A stretch of DNA of 32,515 nt. Origin: Comamonadaceae bacterium. GTDB taxonomy: Bacteria > Pseudomonadota > Gammaproteobacteria > Burkholderiales > Burkholderiaceae_C. The DNA lies in the NCBI GenBank assembly GCA_021299555.1, contig JAJTGH010000006.1, forward strand, positions 1 through 32,515. Direction: 5' to 3'. The position numbers and the translations under genes are program-made. Shown in pieces: positions 2,477 to 27,114 of the stretch. How positions within the stretch are numbered: position 1 is the first letter of the stretch; each line of letters starts with the position of its first letter. The notes under the pieces were generated by a model, which did no database searches, had not been told where the DNA came from, and saw only the letters and a list, made by a program, of their open reading frames with translations.

Positions 2477-4134
<1,658 letters not shown>

Positions 4135-4457: not shown

Positions 4458-4736
4458 TTATCGCTCAAAAGTAGGAATTTCCGAACAAATCGGCTTGTCT
4501 TAGAGAGCTCATCGTTCAACTTCTTCAATAAATGTGCCTAAGATCGGCTGCCACCCATTCCGTGTCACAATGCGTCACCGCCGGCCTCCAGTTGCCGCGG
4601 CATCAGCACTCGTGCTGGGAGATGCGGACCACGTCCGCGCAAGCCCTCCCTCCCTTGACCCCTTCGGCCTGGACTGGCGACCGCTGCAAAACGGTTGACA
4701 AGCCGAACCCTGCGCCCGGTGGGCGCTTTTAAATCA

Positions 4737-6434
4737 ATGACTTTTGAAGAACTGAACTTGGCTCCGGCCATCGTCAAGGCCGTGCGCGAGCAAGGCTATG
4801 ACACCCCCACCCCCATTCAGGCACAGGCCATTCCGGCCGTGCTCAAGGGCGGTGACTTGCTTGGCGGTGCACAAACCGGCACCGGCAAGACAGCAGCCTT
4901 TACGCTGCCGATGCTGCAATTGCTGTCAAGCCGCGAACGCACCAAGGACAGGCGCGGTGCCAATGCGGTGCGCGCGCTCATTCTCACTCCCACCCGCGAG
5001 CTCGCCGCTCAGGTTGAAGAGAGCGTACGCACCTACGGCAAATACCTGGATTTGAAGTCCATGGTGATGTTTGGCGGCGTGGGCATGAGCCCGCAGATCT
5101 CGCAACTGCGCAGCGGCGTGGACATTCTGGTGGCCACCCCCGGCCGCTTGCTCGATCATGCTGGCCAAGGCACGCTGGACCTGAGCAAGGTCGAGATCCT
5201 GGTGCTCGATGAGGCCGACCGCATGCTCGACATGGGCTTCATCCATGACATCAAGAAGGTGCTGGCGCTGGTGCCCAAACAGAAGCAGTCGCTGCTGTTT
5301 TCCGCCACCTTCAGCGACGAGATCCGCGATCTGGCCAATGGCCTGCTGCGTGATCCCGAGCATATTCAAGTCACGCCACGCAACACCACGGTGCAGCGCA
5401 TCGAGCAGACCATACACCCGGTCGGGCGCGGCAAGAAAAAAGCGCTGCTGGCACACATCATCAACGAGCGCAACTGGAGCCAGGTGCTGGTGTTCACCCG
5501 CACCAAGTTTGGCGCCAACAATGTGGCCGAGTACCTGACGAAAAACGGCATCACCGCGATGGCGCTGCACGGCAACAAGAGCCAGACTGCACGCACGCAG
5601 GCGCTCGGCGGCTTCAAGAGCGGCGATATCCGCGCGCTGGTGGCGACTGACATTGCAGCCCGTGGCATTGATATTGACGAATTGCCACACGTGGTCAACT
5701 ACGAGATCCCGAACATCAGCGAGGACTATGTCCACCGCATCGGTCGAACCGGCCGTGCGGGTAACAGCGGCCAGGCCATCAGCTTCGTTTGTCTGGACGA
5801 AGAGGGTTTCATGCAGGACATTGAGCGCTTTACCCGCCAGACCATCGAAAAAGTGGTCGTGCCGGGCTTTGAGGCCGAGCCCGATGAGCGGGCCGAGCCG
5901 ATCGCCATGGGGCGACAGACCCTGTGGGGCGGGCTGGGCAAGCCACCGAGCCGCGAGGTGATGGCTGCGGCAGCCAAAGCAGCGCGCAGTGAGATGATGG
6001 AGCGCATCCGCGCCAACAAGGGCGCAGCCGGTGGCTCTGGTGGAACAGGGCGGGGTCAAGCCAGGCCCGCTCAGGGATCGGGCGGGCGCAGTGGTGGCGG
6101 CCAGGCGCAGCGCAGCGGTGCAGGTGGGTCAAGCGGCCAGCGCTCGCCCCATGCGCCGCGACAAGGCCAAGGGCTGGGGCAAGGACATTCGGCGGGGCAA
6201 GGCGCGGCGCGCAGCGCCAATGTGGCACCGCGCCAGCAGCGCAGCCACGACGACGAGGCTCAGCCACGCTCGCACCTGTCATCGGGCTTTCCGTCGTCGG
6301 GCTTGCCGGCAAGCCGTGGCGGTTATCGGGGCGGCGGTGGCGGTGGTGGTGGTGGCCGCAGCGGCGGCGGCGGCAATCGCAGCGGCCGATCGGGCGGCGG
6401 TGGTCGCTCAGGTGGCGGCGGCTACGGCTACTGA
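4737..6434 (+). CDS. rhlE: DEAD-box ATP-dependent RNA helicase RhlE
   Basis: [59 protein letters not shown] ([13 protein letters not shown]), [13 protein letters not shown] motifs; long Gly/Arg/Ser/Gln-rich C-terminal tail. Start placed at the ATG at 4737. Confidence 0.95.
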
Positions 6435-20563: not shown

Positions 20564-20818
20564 TCAATCAAAAATTTCACTGAGCCAAGACTTGTGCTTG
20601 CGGTGACCGTGGTGCGACTGACTCCAATTTTGGGGCGCAGTCCGCTGGGCAGTCACAGACTGAGCCGTCACAGGAACATCTGCAGCACTGCGCTCGATGA
20701 TCTTGTCAAGTTCACCGCGATCGAGCCAGACGCCGCGACACTTGGGGCAGTAGTCAATTTCCACGCCTTGGCGTTCAGCCATCGTCAGAACATGATCAAC
20801 GCACTGGGGACACTTCAT
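20564..20818 (-). CDS. zf-TFIIB-type small zinc-ribbon protein
   Basis: MKCPQCVDHVLTMAERQGVEIDYCPKCRGVWLDRGELDKIIERS: CxxC...CPxCxGxWLDRGEL. Confidence 0.88.
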   Translation of the reverse strand: MKCPQCVDHVLTMAERQGVEIDYCPKCRGVWLDRGELDKIIERSAADVPVTAQSVTAQRTAPQNWSQSHHGHRKHKSWLSEIFD

Positions 20819-20830
20819 AAGAGACTCCTT

Positions 20831-21814
20831 TCAGGACAACTTATCACCGTCGGGGCCAGGGACTGTGCCCACTGGTGCGGTGCGGGCGCTCAGAATCATG
20901 GTGATCGCAAGAATACCGACCACCGCACCGAGCGACACCACCACGGGGATCTTGTAGACATCGATGAGCACCATTTTGGTACCGATGAAGACCAGAATCA
21001 CTGCCAAGCCATAGTTGAGCAAATGGAACTTGGCAGCGACCGCCTGCAACAAGAAGAACATGGCCCGCAATCCCAAAATTGCGAATACGTTGCTGGTCAG
21101 CACAATGAACGGATCGCTGGTGATGGCAAAAATCGCGGGAATGGAGTCCACGGCAAAGATGACGTCGGTCAAACCCACCAAACAGATGACCATGAACAGC
21201 GGAGTGGCGATGCGCTTGCCGTTTTCCAGCGTAAAGAAATTCTCACCGTCGTAAGCGCTGCTCACGGGTATGAGCTTGCGCAAAATCTTCAGTGCCGGGT
21301 TGTCGCTCAGATCAGACTCCTTGCCAGCGGCCCACCACATCTTGATGCCAGTCAGGATCAGGAAGCCGCCAAACACATAAAGAACCCAATGAAACTGAGC
21401 CAGGAGCCAGCCACCAATCAAGATCATCACGGTGCGCAGTACGATGGCACCGACGATGCCGATCATCAAAACCCGCTTCTGGTAAGCCGCAGGAACGGAA
21501 AAGTAGGTGAAGATCATCAGGAAGACAACAATGTTGTCAACCGCCAAGCTCTTTTCGATCAAGTACCCGGTCAAAAACTCCAGTGATTTTTCGGAGGCCA
21601 GTTCGGAATTGCCCGTGGTGTCGCGAATTGCCCACCAAAACAGGGCATTGAAAACGAAACTCAGCGCGACCCAGACGATGGACCAGTTGATGGCCTGTTT
21701 GACGCTGACCTCCTGCGCACCTTGTTTTTTAAGGACAACAAAGTCAACGAAGAGCGCCGCCAGCACAAAGACGACAAAGACGAGCCAGAGCCACAAGGGC
21801 GCGATGGAATTCAT
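20831..21814 (-). CDS. TerC/Alx family integral membrane protein (probable metal exporter)
   Basis: MNSIAPLWLWLVFVVFVLAALFVDFVVL..., EKSLAVDNIVVFLMIFTYFSVPAAYQKRVLMIGIVGAIVLR, DVIFAVDSIPAIFAITSDPFIVLTSNVFAILGLRAMFFLLQ. ATG at 21814 with upstream GAGG Shine-Dalgarno. Confidence 0.94.
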   Translation of the reverse strand: MNSIAPLWLWLVFVVFVLAALFVDFVVLKKQGAQEVSVKQAINWSIVWVALSFVFNALFWWAIRDTTGNSELASEKSLEFLTGYLIEKSLAVDNIVVFLMIFTYFSVPAAYQKRVLMIGIVGAIVLRTVMILIGGWLLAQFHWVLYVFGGFLILTGIKMWWAAGKESDLSDNPALKILRKLIPVSSAYDGENFFTLENGKRIATPLFMVICLVGLTDVIFAVDSIPAIFAITSDPFIVLTSNVFAILGLRAMFFLLQAVAAKFHLLNYGLAVILVFIGTKMVLIDVYKIPVVVSLGAVVGILAITMILSARTAPVGTVPGPDGDKLS

Positions 21815-21843
21815 AAGCAAGACCTCGGTACGGTTTTAGCGCA

Positions 21844-21965
21844 CCCACAAGGTCTTGCGAGACCTCAAACAGCTTGGGGTCCGGGCATGCCGACAAAGCG
21901 CTGCTGCACTCTGTGTATTGACGACGCTACCCACCGGCATGGCCGGCACGCTACTCCCCTTGGGG
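21844..21965 (-). promoter_or_regulatory. yybP-ykoY-type (manganese) riboswitch in the terC leader
   Basis: Minus strand reads CCCCAAGGGGAGTAGCGTGCCGGCCATGCCGGTGGGTAGCGTCGTCAATACAC...GGCATGCCCGGACCCC...GAGGTCTCGCAAGACCTTGTGGGTGCGC; conserved GGGGAGUAG, GUCGUCAAYA, GAGnUCUCGCAAGACCUUGUGGGUG elements and P1 pairing (CCCCAAGG / CCTTGTGGG). Confidence 0.85.
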
Positions 21966-22067
21966 AAGAGAACCCGATGATAGACCGAGACGCCAAATCC
22001 CCATGGATTTAAGGAGATCTTGCGAGAGTCAGCGCATGAGCGATCGAACCGACTGGCCCATAGAGCC

Positions 22068-23297
22068 TCAGTCCTGACGCTCCACCACAAAGCTGACCAC
22101 GGTGGCACATGAGCCCCCAATGTTGAGCGTCTGTATGCGTTGAGCGCCCTCAATTTGACACGGCCCGGCCTGACCCGTGACCTGCCGCGCAGCGTCAAAC
22201 AGCATGCGCGATCCGGTAGCGCCCACCGGATGGCCGCAGCCGATCAGCCCGCCGCTGGGATTGATGGGGCAGCGGCCACCCGGTTCGATCCAGCCTTGCT
22301 CGACCGCCTGCCAACTCTGACCCGGGGCAGTCAACCCAAAGTGATCAATAGCCATGTACTCGGTGGTTGTAAAACAGTCGTGCGTCTCTATGCCCGACAG
22401 GGCCTGCGTGCCCTGTATGCCCGCACGCCGCCAGGCATGCTCGATCGCCTCGCGCACATGCGGGAAAACGTAAGCCTGATCCCGACTGCGTTCCAACTTG
22501 TCGCTCAGTCGCAGCCCCGCATTGCGATGCCCCCAACCCGAGATCCGGGCCAATGGCGCCTTGACGCCCTTGGCAGCATGCGCCTGGGCGAAGCGCGCAG
22601 AGGCGAGCACCACGGCACAGGCCCCATCGGTGATTTGTCCGCAATCCTGCCTTCGCGTGCCCGGTTCGATGACCGGATTGGCCTGATCGTCGTCGGTAAA
22701 GCTCAACTCATCAAACTGCCACTTGCGGGTTTGTGCCAAGGGATTGCGCTTGGCGTTGGCATAGTTGATCTGGGCAATGCGATTAAGATATTTGCGGTCG
22801 AGCCCGTATCGGTGATCGTATTCCTGAGCCAGCAGACCAAACGCCGCGGGCCACATGAAGGTGCAGTCTATGCCCTCATGACCCTGCCAAGACGCAGCGT
22901 TTTGATTGACCGACGCCACGTCACCGGCCGTATTCTTGAACTCCTCAACGCCCAACACAAGCACGCAGTCGTAGCGCCCGGATTCAATTTCGGCCATCGC
23001 AGTGAGCACGGCCAGGGAAGAAGATGCACACGCACCTTCATGCCGCATCGCAGGCACGCCCCACAACTGCGGCACCACCTGCGAGACCATGGCACCGAGG
23101 TGGGCCTGGTTGCGCTGCAACTCAGCAAACGCGTTTCCCACATGAATGCTCTCAATCGCCTGAGCATCAAGGCCACAGGCGTCCAAGGCGCCCAGCGTCG
23201 CCTCACGCACCATGTCGGAAATGTCTTGCCCCTGGCGAGACCAGGCTTTGGCAAAGTCGGTCTGGTATCCCCCCAACACAAAAACCGGTGCGCTCAT
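22068..23297 (-). CDS. Thiolase family protein / acetyl-CoA acetyltransferase
   Basis: MSAPVFVLGGYQTDFAKAWSRQGQDISDMVREATLGALDACGLDA, MRHEGACASSSLAVL, NPSGGLIGCGHPVGATGSRM. Confidence 0.92.
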   Translation of the reverse strand: MSAPVFVLGGYQTDFAKAWSRQGQDISDMVREATLGALDACGLDAQAIESIHVGNAFAELQRNQAHLGAMVSQVVPQLWGVPAMRHEGACASSSLAVLTAMAEIESGRYDCVLVLGVEEFKNTAGDVASVNQNAASWQGHEGIDCTFMWPAAFGLLAQEYDHRYGLDRKYLNRIAQINYANAKRNPLAQTRKWQFDELSFTDDDQANPVIEPGTRRQDCGQITDGACAVVLASARFAQAHAAKGVKAPLARISGWGHRNAGLRLSDKLERSRDQAYVFPHVREAIEHAWRRAGIQGTQALSGIETHDCFTTTEYMAIDHFGLTAPGQSWQAVEQGWIEPGGRCPINPSGGLIGCGHPVGATGSRMLFDAARQVTGQAGPCQIEGAQRIQTLNIGGSCATVVSFVVERQD

Positions 23298-23490
23298 GTT
23301 TTCTCCCAGCGTTTGATCCATCGAACCGCTCAGTATCCACCCGTCTGAGGGATATTGTCACAAATGGCGGAAGACCTCAACCCAAAGCCATAAGTGCCCA
23401 GTGCCAGACTCGCTCCAACCAGGCCGCCTGGCCCTTAAGCCGGCTTGCTACACCGTTGGCTCACTGGGTAAGAGCAGCGAGACCTGCATT

Positions 23491-24039
23491 TCACTTCTTG
23501 ACCAACGCGAGAGACCTTGCAAGCGACGCCTCAAAGGCGTCTTTGAGCGGATGGTTCGAAACGGGGAGTGCATCAACCACCTGCTTTGCCCAATCCAAAT
23601 AGTTGAGCCTGCGTTCTTCAGACCAACCCACAGCAGGTCGATCGCCAACATCTCGAACGTTTGAGGTCTTGTCTGCAAGCTTGACCAAGGCGGCTCCAGG
23701 GGACTTGTGCGGCGCGTTGACGAGCTGCATCTGTTTACGCTGGGCCTTATCCGTGATGGACTTGTCATCCGTGACCTCGGCAACCATGGACGCCACCCGG
23801 ACGCCAAAATGCGCGGCAAGCTCAGATTCGGTGGTTGCTGTGTCCTCGATGGTGTCGTGAAGCAATGCCGCGGCGATGATCTCTGGGTCTGACACGCCAC
23901 CGTCTTCAGCCAGAATTCGGGCGACCTGTAGCGGATGATTGATATACGCGGTTGACTCAGCTTCTTTTCGCAACTGACCGCGATGCTTGTCGGCGGCGAA
24001 GTTGGCCGCTTTAAGGATGAGAACGAGGTTGTTGTCCAT
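23491..24039 (-). CDS. Stand-alone SpoT/MESH1-type HD domain phosphohydrolase
   Basis: 182 aa; AADKHRGQLRKEAESTAYINHPLQVA, ALLHDTIEDTATTESEL, KLADKTSNVRDV = RelA/SpoT hydrolase HD motifs without synthetase, TGS or ACT domains. Confidence 0.88.
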   Translation of the reverse strand: MDNNLVLILKAANFAADKHRGQLRKEAESTAYINHPLQVARILAEDGGVSDPEIIAAALLHDTIEDTATTESELAAHFGVRVASMVAEVTDDKSITDKAQRKQMQLVNAPHKSPGAALVKLADKTSNVRDVGDRPAVGWSEERRLNYLDWAKQVVDALPVSNHPLKDAFEASLARSLALVKK

Positions 24040-24048
24040 ACTGGTTCC

Positions 24049-25851
24049 TTATGGTTGACTGATTGTTTTGCAGAGCTGATTGATGTAGTCGGTCGCGTCA
24101 AACTCCACTGGCTTTGCGCCGTCTATCCCAACGATGATGGGCGTTTCACCAAAGTGAAGCCACATGTCGCGTCCTGCTGCATCGCGAGACGGTAACCCGC
24201 TCTTGCAGATGCGGCGTGCTGCACCCAGCGCAGCCTCGGCGCTGCTGAAGGTGTTTTCACTCCACGATTGACCATAATCGAAGTTATCGAGCACATCGAT
24301 TCGGTACCGTGGACCCTTCATCGAACGGCGGCGGGTTGAATCCACCGCACACAGCAGCGACAGCGTGGCGTCGATCACTTCATCAAACTCCTTACCCAAT
24401 TGCCGATTCGCTGGACCAACGGCGTGTGCAAGTGCCCAATCGCCTTTCCTTTGTTCAAGGGCAATCGTGGCTCTCCGCTGCCCGCCAGCGTCTCTAACCG
24501 AAAGAACAAGGCACGTTCCTGTCTTGCAGCGCTCTCCATACAGGTCTGCGCAGTGACGCATTGCGATCGACTCCTCCCAGAGATCCCGACCGCAGGTGAG
24601 CGGCACTGCTGTGTAGTCGCCAACCGTCACCGGATGCAGAGGGACGCTCCACTGGAGCGACTCCAGCTCAAGCGCACGCCGTCTTTGCTCGGCGTGCGTT
24701 CGTGCGCTTCGAACCAAGAACGCCCAGCCTCTTTTGCGCTGCCGCGGCAAAATCTGACGCACCGCCGTATCAGCCACCCAGGCACAGATTTCATGCAGTT
24801 CGGTGATGCGCTGGTCACGGCTTCGCGGCGCCTTGCCGGTTTCCAGGAGCCGGATGATGTGCCCAAGCGTATTGCGCACTGGAGCAAGGTTATCAGCATA
24901 GCTTTCTGGGGCGCTGGCTCGGGTCCCCACCATGGACAAGATAACGCGCCAGACATCCGGGTCAATTTCGTGGCTGGGTTTGAGTTGGGCGATGACCCGC
25001 AAAAAGTCTTCTGCGGGTTCGTCAGGAGCAGCCAGCAGTCTCCACTGCGCTGGTTTGACGCCGCGCAGTAGGCAAGCTTGCTTGAAGCGGGCACTGGCTT
25101 GTGTTGAACCACGGGCGTCCGCCTCCGGCATGGTTAGCCAGCGGGCAAGCAGCGCAAATATTGGGGAGCACTCTTTCAACTGCAGGAGGACATCGCGCGT
25201 GCCGCGGTAGTTGTTGTACGCGGTCACGGTTTGGCGAGAACTACCGCCGTCAAACCTGTGACACCATCGCATCAGCGAAACGGTCTGCAGGTCGAGTGCC
25301 AGCCCGGCGCGAATACGCGAGCGCAGACGGCGCAGATCAATCGGGTCAATGATCCGCTGGCGAATGAGCGACCATGCCCATTGCGCCCATTGCTCACCAG
25401 CCGTCTGATCCCCGAGCCGCGCTTGGGCTTCGTAGACAAATGCCTGTTCCAGCTTTTGATGCCATAGCCCTGTACTCGGGAAGTCGAGGATAGGGGTCTC
25501 GAGCGGATAGAAGTCGACCAGCCAGCTCTGACAGTCATCTTGTGGGCGCTGCCAAAGGGCAGTGGTGAAGGAGCCGTCATCCTCCTGGTGGTAGACCACC
25601 ACTCCCAGAATGGCGTGAAAAACACGCCCATCAGACTCGACACGTCGGATGGGGTCAGCCACGATATCCGTAACATGCCGGGCAAAAGACACCAAATGGT
25701 GGGCGCAATGCGCCTGGGCAAGCGCGTTCGGCGGCTCTTTAGCCAGTAACTCCTGCTCCAGAGCAGACAGCTCAACGGGCAATGAGTCGATTGAGGGACG
25801 GCAGATACCGCAATGCAGCAGTGCCGGGTAAGCGCTCAATGGTTCGTTCAT
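24049..25851 (-). CDS. PcfJ-like domain protein
   Basis: 600 aa from ATG 25851 (SD AAGGAG); C-terminal SIAMRHCADLYGERCKTGTCLVLSVRDAGGQRRATIALEQRKGDWALAHAVGPANRQL resembles the PcfJ-like HC(V/A)xxY...G...hxhR core; N-terminal ~350 aa unassigned. Confidence 0.65.
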   Translation of the reverse strand: MNEPLSAYPALLHCGICRPSIDSLPVELSALEQELLAKEPPNALAQAHCAHHLVSFARHVTDIVADPIRRVESDGRVFHAILGVVVYHQEDDGSFTTALWQRPQDDCQSWLVDFYPLETPILDFPSTGLWHQKLEQAFVYEAQARLGDQTAGEQWAQWAWSLIRQRIIDPIDLRRLRSRIRAGLALDLQTVSLMRWCHRFDGGSSRQTVTAYNNYRGTRDVLLQLKECSPIFALLARWLTMPEADARGSTQASARFKQACLLRGVKPAQWRLLAAPDEPAEDFLRVIAQLKPSHEIDPDVWRVILSMVGTRASAPESYADNLAPVRNTLGHIIRLLETGKAPRSRDQRITELHEICAWVADTAVRQILPRQRKRGWAFLVRSARTHAEQRRRALELESLQWSVPLHPVTVGDYTAVPLTCGRDLWEESIAMRHCADLYGERCKTGTCLVLSVRDAGGQRRATIALEQRKGDWALAHAVGPANRQLGKEFDEVIDATLSLLCAVDSTRRRSMKGPRYRIDVLDNFDYGQSWSENTFSSAEAALGAARRICKSGLPSRDAAGRDMWLHFGETPIIVGIDGAKPVEFDATDYINQLCKTISQP

Positions 25852-25878
25852 GATTACTCCTTGTGGGATTTGGCTCAA

Positions 25879-26016
25879 CAAGGCGTCCGGCTGGATCGCA
25901 GGCAGACGCCTTGGTGAACCCCGACCGGGGTACTCCTGCTCATCGCAGGTCCTCTAGGACAGGGGACTCACCCCAACCAACCCATTGATCCAGCCCTCTC
26001 GCTGGCTTCTCCGGAG
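25879..26016 (-). ncRNA. Putative structured leader RNA / ncRNA upstream of the PcfJ-like gene
   Basis: Consecutive perfect inverted repeats: CAAGGCGTC/GACGCCTTG (25879-25887/25905-25913), CCCC/GGGG (25919-25930), CCTGC/GCAGG (25935-25949), TCC/GGA (25950-25959), GGGG/CCCC (25962-25974), CCAGC/GCTGG (25990-26005), CTCCGGAG (26009-26016), plus perfect 9-bp long-range pairing GGCTGGATC (25889-25897) / GATCCAGCC (25987-25995). Confidence 0.5.
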
Positions 26017-26075
26017 TCCAACCACTGACGGGAGCCATTGCCGATGCGCTACTTAGTGGCATAACGCATATATGT

Positions 26076-26104
26076 AATGTAGCACCGTTCGTGGTACCAT
26101 GCAA
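26076..26104 (-). promoter_or_regulatory. Candidate promoter and operator for the PcfJ/HD operon
   Basis: Minus strand TTGCAT - 17 bp - TACATT; overlapping imperfect 7-5-7 inverted repeat GTAGCAC-cgttc-GTGGTAC (26079-26097). Confidence 0.4.
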
Positions 26105-26135
26105 CTATGTCTGAAAAACACCACAAAAAAGTGTC

Positions 26136-26816
26136 ATGCCGACCTATCTAATGCCCTTTTGCAGGGTCGAAATCGCTGTTCAGAGCCTGATTGATCAGCG
26201 GCTGAACGTATTGCTGATACGAAGGGAAGAGGCGCCTTACAAAGGCTTCTGGGCGCTTCCAGGAGGGGTTCTGCGCGTAGATCTTGACCCCGATCTTGGT
26301 GCTGCAGCAGTCAGGGTTGCCAAAGAGAGGCTGGGCATCCCACCGCCGAACCTTTGCCAAATGAAAACGGTGGGCGCCAAGGGACGGGATCCCCGTGGTG
26401 AGGCTGGCTGGGGTCTATCGGTAGTCTACAGGGCGTTGATCGCCGAGGGCGCCGCGACCTTCGCTCCTGGCAAGCGGGTGACGGAATTGCGATGGGTGCC
26501 AGTTGATGAACTCCCGACCAAGATCGCATTCGATCACGCTGAATTGATTGCGCAGGCGGTAAACCAGACGCGTTCAGACATTGCGAAGCTGAGCTTTCCC
26601 ACGGGCTTTGTGCCAGAGCGTTTCACGCTCGGGGAACTCCAGGTCTTGTCGGAACAAGTGCTGGGGCACACGATAGACAAGGCGTCGTTCAGGCGCAAGT
26701 TGCGCGACCGAGGCTTGGTAGAAGCGATTGAGGGTGAACAGCTGCGCGGAAGCGCACATCGCCCATCAGCGATTTTTCGGCTAAGACGATCAGCGGTTCA
26801 GCCCAACGGCATCTGA
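26136..26816 (+). CDS. NrtR-like NUDIX domain / winged-helix transcriptional regulator
   Basis: N-terminal NUDIX fold (VLLIRREEAPYKGFWALPGGVLRVDLDPDLGAAAVRVAKERLGI) and C-terminal FTLGELQVLSEQVLGHTIDKASFRRKLRDRGLVEAIEGEQLRGSAHRPSAIFRLR, the NrtR wHTH arrangement. Confidence 0.87.
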   Translation: MPTYLMPFCRVEIAVQSLIDQRLNVLLIRREEAPYKGFWALPGGVLRVDLDPDLGAAAVRVAKERLGIPPPNLCQMKTVGAKGRDPRGEAGWGLSVVYRALIAEGAATFAPGKRVTELRWVPVDELPTKIAFDHAELIAQAVNQTRSDIAKLSFPTGFVPERFTLGELQVLSEQVLGHTIDKASFRRKLRDRGLVEAIEGEQLRGSAHRPSAIFRLRRSAVQPNGI

Positions 26817-26865
26817 AAGCAACCGGGGCGCAGCAGCCCCGTGCGGTGACTTCAGTCCCCAAACG

Positions 26866-26889
26866 AAAAAGCCTTGACGAATCAAGGCT
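26866..26889 (-). terminator. Rho-independent terminator downstream of tRNA-Arg
   Basis: Minus strand AGCCTTGA-TTCG-TCAAGGCT-TTTT: perfect 8-bp stem, tetraloop, T-tract. Confidence 0.75.
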
Positions 26890-26900
26890 CTTCGAAGAAT

Positions 26901-26978
26901 TGGCGCGGCTGGCAGGATTCGAACCCACGACCCCTTGGTTCGTAGCCAAGTACTCTAATCCAACTGAGCTACAGCCGC
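26901..26978 (-). tRNA. tRNA-Arg (anticodon ACG), CCA encoded
   Basis: Minus strand GCGGCTGTAGCTCAGTTGGATTAGAGTACTTGGCTACGAACCAAGGGGTCGTGGGTTCGAATCCTGCCAGCCGCGCCA folds as a cloverleaf; anticodon loop CTACGAA. Confidence 0.96.
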
Positions 26979-27114
26979 TGAACTACAAATTATGGCACAG
27001 ATTCAGAGCGGCACTCGGGCAGCGACCGACAAGAAGTCCGCTGCTTGGCTGTGAGTAGACATCTGGGGAGGGGCCGCAGGGCAGGACGCTCACTCGTAGC
27101 CTAAAATCTCAGCC

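Follow-up and report, generated by a model that had tools for sequence, protein, structure and literature searches.

INTRODUCTION

SAM riboswitches normally lie before methionine and SAM genes. Elements resembling SAM-II (SAM_alpha, RF00521), H-type pseudoknots with GCUAAAG and AAU motifs, occur in relatives of the organism studied here before metK and metX and at six PcfJ loci. In beta-proteobacteria an RNA element has been described for metXZ, and its authors report finding no regulator for metK (PMC4239095). Control at the DNA level is exemplified by NrtR of Mycobacterium smegmatis, an autorepressor that acts on a palindromic N7 site beside the operon it controls; ADP-ribose releases it (PMC6800001).

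We describe the spacer between a PcfJ-like gene and a divergent Nudix-family gene. It resembles the M. smegmatis nrtR / nadABC control region (PMC6800001) in that the regulator adjoins the operon it likely controls and the two are separated by a palindromic N7 site. It differs in that the target is a PcfJ-like / alarmone-hydrolase operon rather than NAD synthesis, in the sequence of the operator, which is putative here, and in a long structured leader. The SAM-II likeness belongs to the relatives; the window itself lacks such an element, most PcfJ-linked copies fall short of the Rfam gathering score, and PcfJ is not a methionine gene context. The metXZ element is likewise a pseudoknot upstream of metX, as are several of our RNA-model matches, but it is not in the window, and the available part of its description reports none for metK, where our model also matches, and no link to PcfJ (PMC4239095).

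LOCUS AND GENES

The window is the whole stretch analysed, 32,515 nucleotides, and constitutes an entire contig (C196) of a 2.97-Mb draft genome. Its GreB is up to 82% identical to those of same-genus genomes, so the contig appears correctly binned. The genes that matter here are:

23491–24039, minus strand: HD_4 gene of small-alarmone-hydrolase type, 182 aa (Pfam HD_4, 66.7 bits), 9 nt 3′ of pcfJ
24049–25851, minus strand: PcfJ-like gene, 600 aa, first in a minus-strand operon, with ATG at 25851 after the Shine-Dalgarno (SD) sequence AAGGAG
26136–26816, plus strand: divergent NrtR-type Nudix / winged-helix regulator (NUDIX 44.8 and NrtR_WHD 55.9 bits, both above cut-off)
about 26901–26978: tRNA-Arg gene, downstream of the Nudix gene

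The Pfam PcfJ profile (PF14284) scores the PcfJ-like protein at 24.1 bits, just under the curated cut-off of 25; its relatives range from no match to 28.1 bits. PDB (with the PcfJ profile) and PHROGs gave nothing usable and PADLOC no defence-family match. No close relative was found in plasmids, phages, GTDB contigs, the genus (87 genomes) or the order (398 genomes), the best full-length relatives being 22–29% identical and from other genera of the family (G646, G598 and G815 were aligned). The HD_4 protein is 40% identical to a PcfJ-adjacent protein in G646. An overlapping ORF with a TTG start (23448–24101) is an unlikely gene; the downstream gene is 23491–24039.

The Nudix protein scores 147.7 against the NCBIfam NtrR equivalog, below the cut-off of 400. 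It carries the NrtR winged helix and is therefore probably a transcriptional regulator with NrtR-type DNA binding.

From greB to tRNA-Arg (20600–26980) the gene content looks variable, and this stretch is possibly a small island. At E 1e-20 the genus offers no match to the alarmone hydrolase, and its homologues of nrtR are just 36–40% identical. No direct repeat of the tRNA-Arg end, of at least 12 nt, was found elsewhere in the window.

PROBABLE OPERATOR BETWEEN THE DIVERGENT GENES

26087–26109, unstranded: probable NrtR operator GTTCGTGGTACCATGCAACTATG, GTTG-N7-CAAC with one mismatch; these limits include flanks, and the one-mismatch core is 26091–26105

We scanned nine nrtR-homologue loci. 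Eight belong to the genus; the ninth is the G148 locus, where nrtR is PcfJ-linked and 53% identical to that of the window. GTTG-N7-CAAC palindromes, often in pairs, occur at seven or eight of the nine; locus L031 is without one. In G148 (L170:5074–6769) a metallophosphatase gene and the PcfJ-linked nrtR are divergently oriented, and two GTTG-N7-CAAC sites lie upstream of nrtR.

Under a matrix built from all 16 sites, the window site ranks first in the 32.5 kb, and of 445,744 positions sampled across the genome a single one reaches its score. When the G148 sites are left out of the matrix its score is modest: 15 of 446,152 positions score as high, corresponding to about 0.009 expected in the spacer, and two coding positions in the window outscore it. 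The spacer holds no clear second copy of the palindrome. From these matches, 26087–26109 is probably an operator for the divergent NrtR-type repressor.

The site covers TTGCAT, the −35 element of a minus-strand promoter (TTGCAT-N17-TACATT, 26104–26076) put forward in an initial annotation of this DNA. That promoter fails a standard consensus scan of the spacer, in which no terminator-like site was found. The same annotation considered that NUDIX or PcfJ proteins might bind the leader. RNA binding of this kind is unsupported; regulation by the NUDIX protein does find support, likely through the DNA operator instead.

HAIRPINS IN THE SPACER

The spacer had been described as far more ordered than an ordinary one, with dense inverted repeats and a long-range 9-bp pairing upstream of the SD. 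All of these elements, the AAGGAG included, are found where they had been placed:

25872–25920, minus strand: hairpin H1, 22-nt arms, 82% complementary; z −5.7 (minus), −4.2 (plus)
25879–25887 / 25905–25913: inverted-repeat arms CAAGGCGTC / GACGCCTTG
25889–25897 / 25987–25995: long-range complement GGCTGGATC / GATCCAGCC, 9 bp, 89 nt apart
25918–25931: small perfect hairpin, 5 bp
25935–25949: small perfect hairpin, 5 bp
25949–25960: small perfect hairpin, 4 bp
25962–25974: small perfect hairpin, 4 bp
25990–26005: small perfect hairpin, 5 bp

The claim of exceptional order holds for H1 alone, whose z was matched by none of 300 shuffles. The whole 225-nt region has a fold z of only about −2 on both strands; cores picked after the fact reach about −2 to −3.9. 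As background, 125 intergenic regions of the same genome were taken from the window and from 40 further contig stretches. Of these, 16 contain a perfect hairpin whose arms measure 9 bp or longer, and 23 reach z ≤ −3 somewhere; the scan clipped the target spacer at an alternative TTG start, so that the target's own rank there means little. At least five non-overlapping perfect hairpins are found in 42% of 220-nt genomic windows (25% of shuffles), and a long-range complementary 9-mer pair in 8.7% (4% of shuffles). The local hairpin at 25990–26005 shares bases with one arm of the long-range pairing, so the two compete and cannot coexist. The small hairpins, the 9-bp pairing and the overall fold energy are thus unexceptional for this genome, and only H1 is clearly above chance.

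Two further candidates were rejected. One end of H1 fits the GTTRRRY of an integron attC site and, judged by eye, the other does not; a 5–6-bp pseudoknot near 26050, also spotted by eye, was judged chance.

Searched with the spacer, Rfam, a check suggested by the initial annotation, gave nothing beyond chance-level matches at either gathering or permissive thresholds. Against 200 related genomes the spacer DNA gave only short matches (E 0.002 or worse), and a core-hairpin pattern search of the genome contigs returned nothing. The match in G042 falls inside an IscB-like coding sequence (L018:483–1952, minus strand), which came to notice in this way, and is taken as chance.

PREDICTED LEADER

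25852–26069, minus strand: putative pcfJ 5′ leader, placed from the promoter of the initial annotation
26013–26017, minus strand: ACUCC, predicted partner of the SD, pairing with GGAGU at 25857–25861

With a start near 26069, the predicted fold pairs ACUCC with GGAGU and covers the start codon, the pair probability of GGAG being about 0.99. Opening the SD costs more than in most shuffled leaders, yet not decisively so, since 17 of 300 equal it (P ~0.06), and the cost varies with the stretch folded. Control of pcfJ translation by the leader fold is possible on this model. A regulatory leader, as first proposed, is plausible from the masked SD and from the SAM-II-type elements of relatives; the RNA classes proposed with it are unsupported.

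We give perhaps one chance in a few to the spacer being an ordinary GC-rich one, in which H1 is a lone hairpin, perhaps mRNA-stabilising, the others are chance and the leader has no regulatory role. Its hairpin density, long-range pair and fold energy lie near the genomic background, and the 200 genomes yielded no homologous DNA that could show selection. H1, far stronger than in shuffles, speaks against this, as do the predicted masking of the SD and the structured RNA that relatives have at comparable loci. An ordinary spacer would be compatible with an NrtR operator at its upstream end.

SAM-II-TYPE ELEMENTS AT PCFJ LOCI OF RELATIVES

A conserved leader is common to relatives G646 and G598, its end lying about 50 nt short of the pcfJ ATG. 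The same motif stands before metK in many genomes of the family, and before metX in a form that the Rfam SAM_alpha model detects. A 34-copy alignment of PcfJ, metK and other copies gives an H-type pseudoknot (P1 and P2) with 97.9% of cells paired and seven of ten pairs changed on both sides; slid versions of the alignment all pair far less. Against RF00521 (gathering score 36), the best PcfJ-linked copy scores 35.4 bits; further values for PcfJ-linked copies are 26.6 bits and E 0.054. One metX copy reaches 36.2 bits.

Our covariance model R1 finds three copies at the PcfJ locus of G646, two each in G598 and G815, two in tandem in G724, and one each in G200 and G148; the G724 and G148 copies had been left out of its building. 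The copies lie at:

L094: 1324–1394, 1492–1565, 2884–2952
L095: 1289–1359, 1466–1539
L096: 3309–3377 (plus strand), 3086–3152 (minus strand)
L047 (G200): 3022–3095, minus strand
L170 (G148): 4726–4797, minus strand
L171 (G724): 6123–6194, 6233–6307

SAM-II-type pseudoknots are therefore present at the PcfJ locus in six of seven informative relatives. G591 is a relative without one there, and none was found at 19 loci with more distant PcfJ-like genes, some of them on short contigs. G543 has a G646-like arrangement on a contig that ends before the gene. The G815 copies are some 1.9 kb upstream of the PcfJ-like gene and the G148 copy precedes a 251-aa gene overlapping pcfJ; not all copies, then, are direct leaders of pcfJ. 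Outside the PcfJ loci, the element occurs only once or twice in each of these genomes, in most cases ahead of metK or metX. From these comparisons we take the association of the PcfJ subfamily with SAM-II-type elements to be real, with SAM as the putative ligand; a PcfJ link was not found in the literature searched, and it looks new.

Several observations accompany these elements. In G200 (L047) and G724 (L171), very short ORFs (12–15 codons) follow the element, ahead of the pcfJ start. A SAM-II-like pseudoknot precedes metK at L101, L107–L109, L112–L127, L134, L145 and L150; Rfam reported no pseudoknot in the metK loci scanned. The motif also stands before a short ORF, starting MHGLASFDRLL or similar, at L100, L102–L106, L110 and L111.

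The genome of the window does carry SAM-II-type elements before metK and metX. Unfiltered scans of the window with R1 reach a maximum of 7.9 bits, and in the spacer the broader model R2 scores below zero.

It is improbable that the window leader is an undescribed riboswitch class that releases or masks the pcfJ SD in place of the relatives' SAM-II. The length of the leader, its predicted SD masking and the pseudoknots at relatives' loci are what such a class would lead one to expect, set against an absence of Rfam matches, homologous leaders and SAM-II similarity and a fold energy near background. The wider proposal, in which PcfJ / nucleotide-hydrolase modules sense metabolites through alternative sensors, SAM aptamers in relatives and a different aptamer plus NrtR here, is held to be just as doubtful. 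That the region encodes an ncRNA acting in trans as part of a PcfJ system is more improbable still: the region is compact, stem-rich and adjoins an uncharacterised protein, but it has no terminator-like site and no defence-family match, and no homologue was seen at other PcfJ loci. The new riboswitch class and the ncRNA both go back to the initial annotation, and neither gained direct support from Rfam, homologous DNA or fold energy, nor the riboswitch from the two SAM-II models. A degenerate SAM-II riboswitch in the window, which the six relatives might suggest, is close to refuted by negative unfiltered scores in the spacer under two models and the 7.9-bit maximum in the window.

DISCUSSION

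On balance we favour, by a modest preference, the reading in which 25852–26135 controls nrtR and the divergent pcfJ-alarmone-hydrolase operon, and comprises an NrtR operator and a structured leader predicted to mask the SD. A repressor operator shared between nrtR and pcfJ is the most economical account, given the site match, the PcfJ-linked nrtR of G148 and the NrtR precedent. The Nudix-winged-helix protein would bind 26087–26109 and repress transcription of both its own gene and the pcfJ operon, and ADP-ribose or a related ligand would release it. The pcfJ mRNA would start with a leader of about 210 nt holding one strong hairpin and ordinary small ones, whose ground state would hide the SD and may tune translation.

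The gene identities, the operator-like site, the hairpins, the predicted SD pairing and the linkage of nrtR and alarmone-hydrolase genes to PcfJ in relatives are direct observations. Against the favoured control region stand one core mismatch, the lack of a clear second site, the modest score without the G148 sites, SD masking at P ~0.06 and a promoter that fails the scan. The spacer most likely serves as a divergent promoter under NrtR control, followed by a structured leader, and its reading as a riboswitch or ncRNA is unsupported.

The hairpins by themselves are weak evidence, and the result most worth following is the association of SAM-II-type elements with PcfJ in relatives. The PcfJ subfamily is linked to nucleotide-metabolising enzymes, an alarmone hydrolase here and in G646 and a metallophosphatase in G148. 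It also appears wired to metabolite sensors, NrtR here and SAM-II-type riboswitches, often in tandem, in relatives. A possible, speculative trigger is that SAM or NAD turnover drops when the cell is stressed or attacked by phage. The function of this family is unknown, and the recurrence of SAM-II-type elements beside it offers a way to learn which signals PcfJ-like modules answer.
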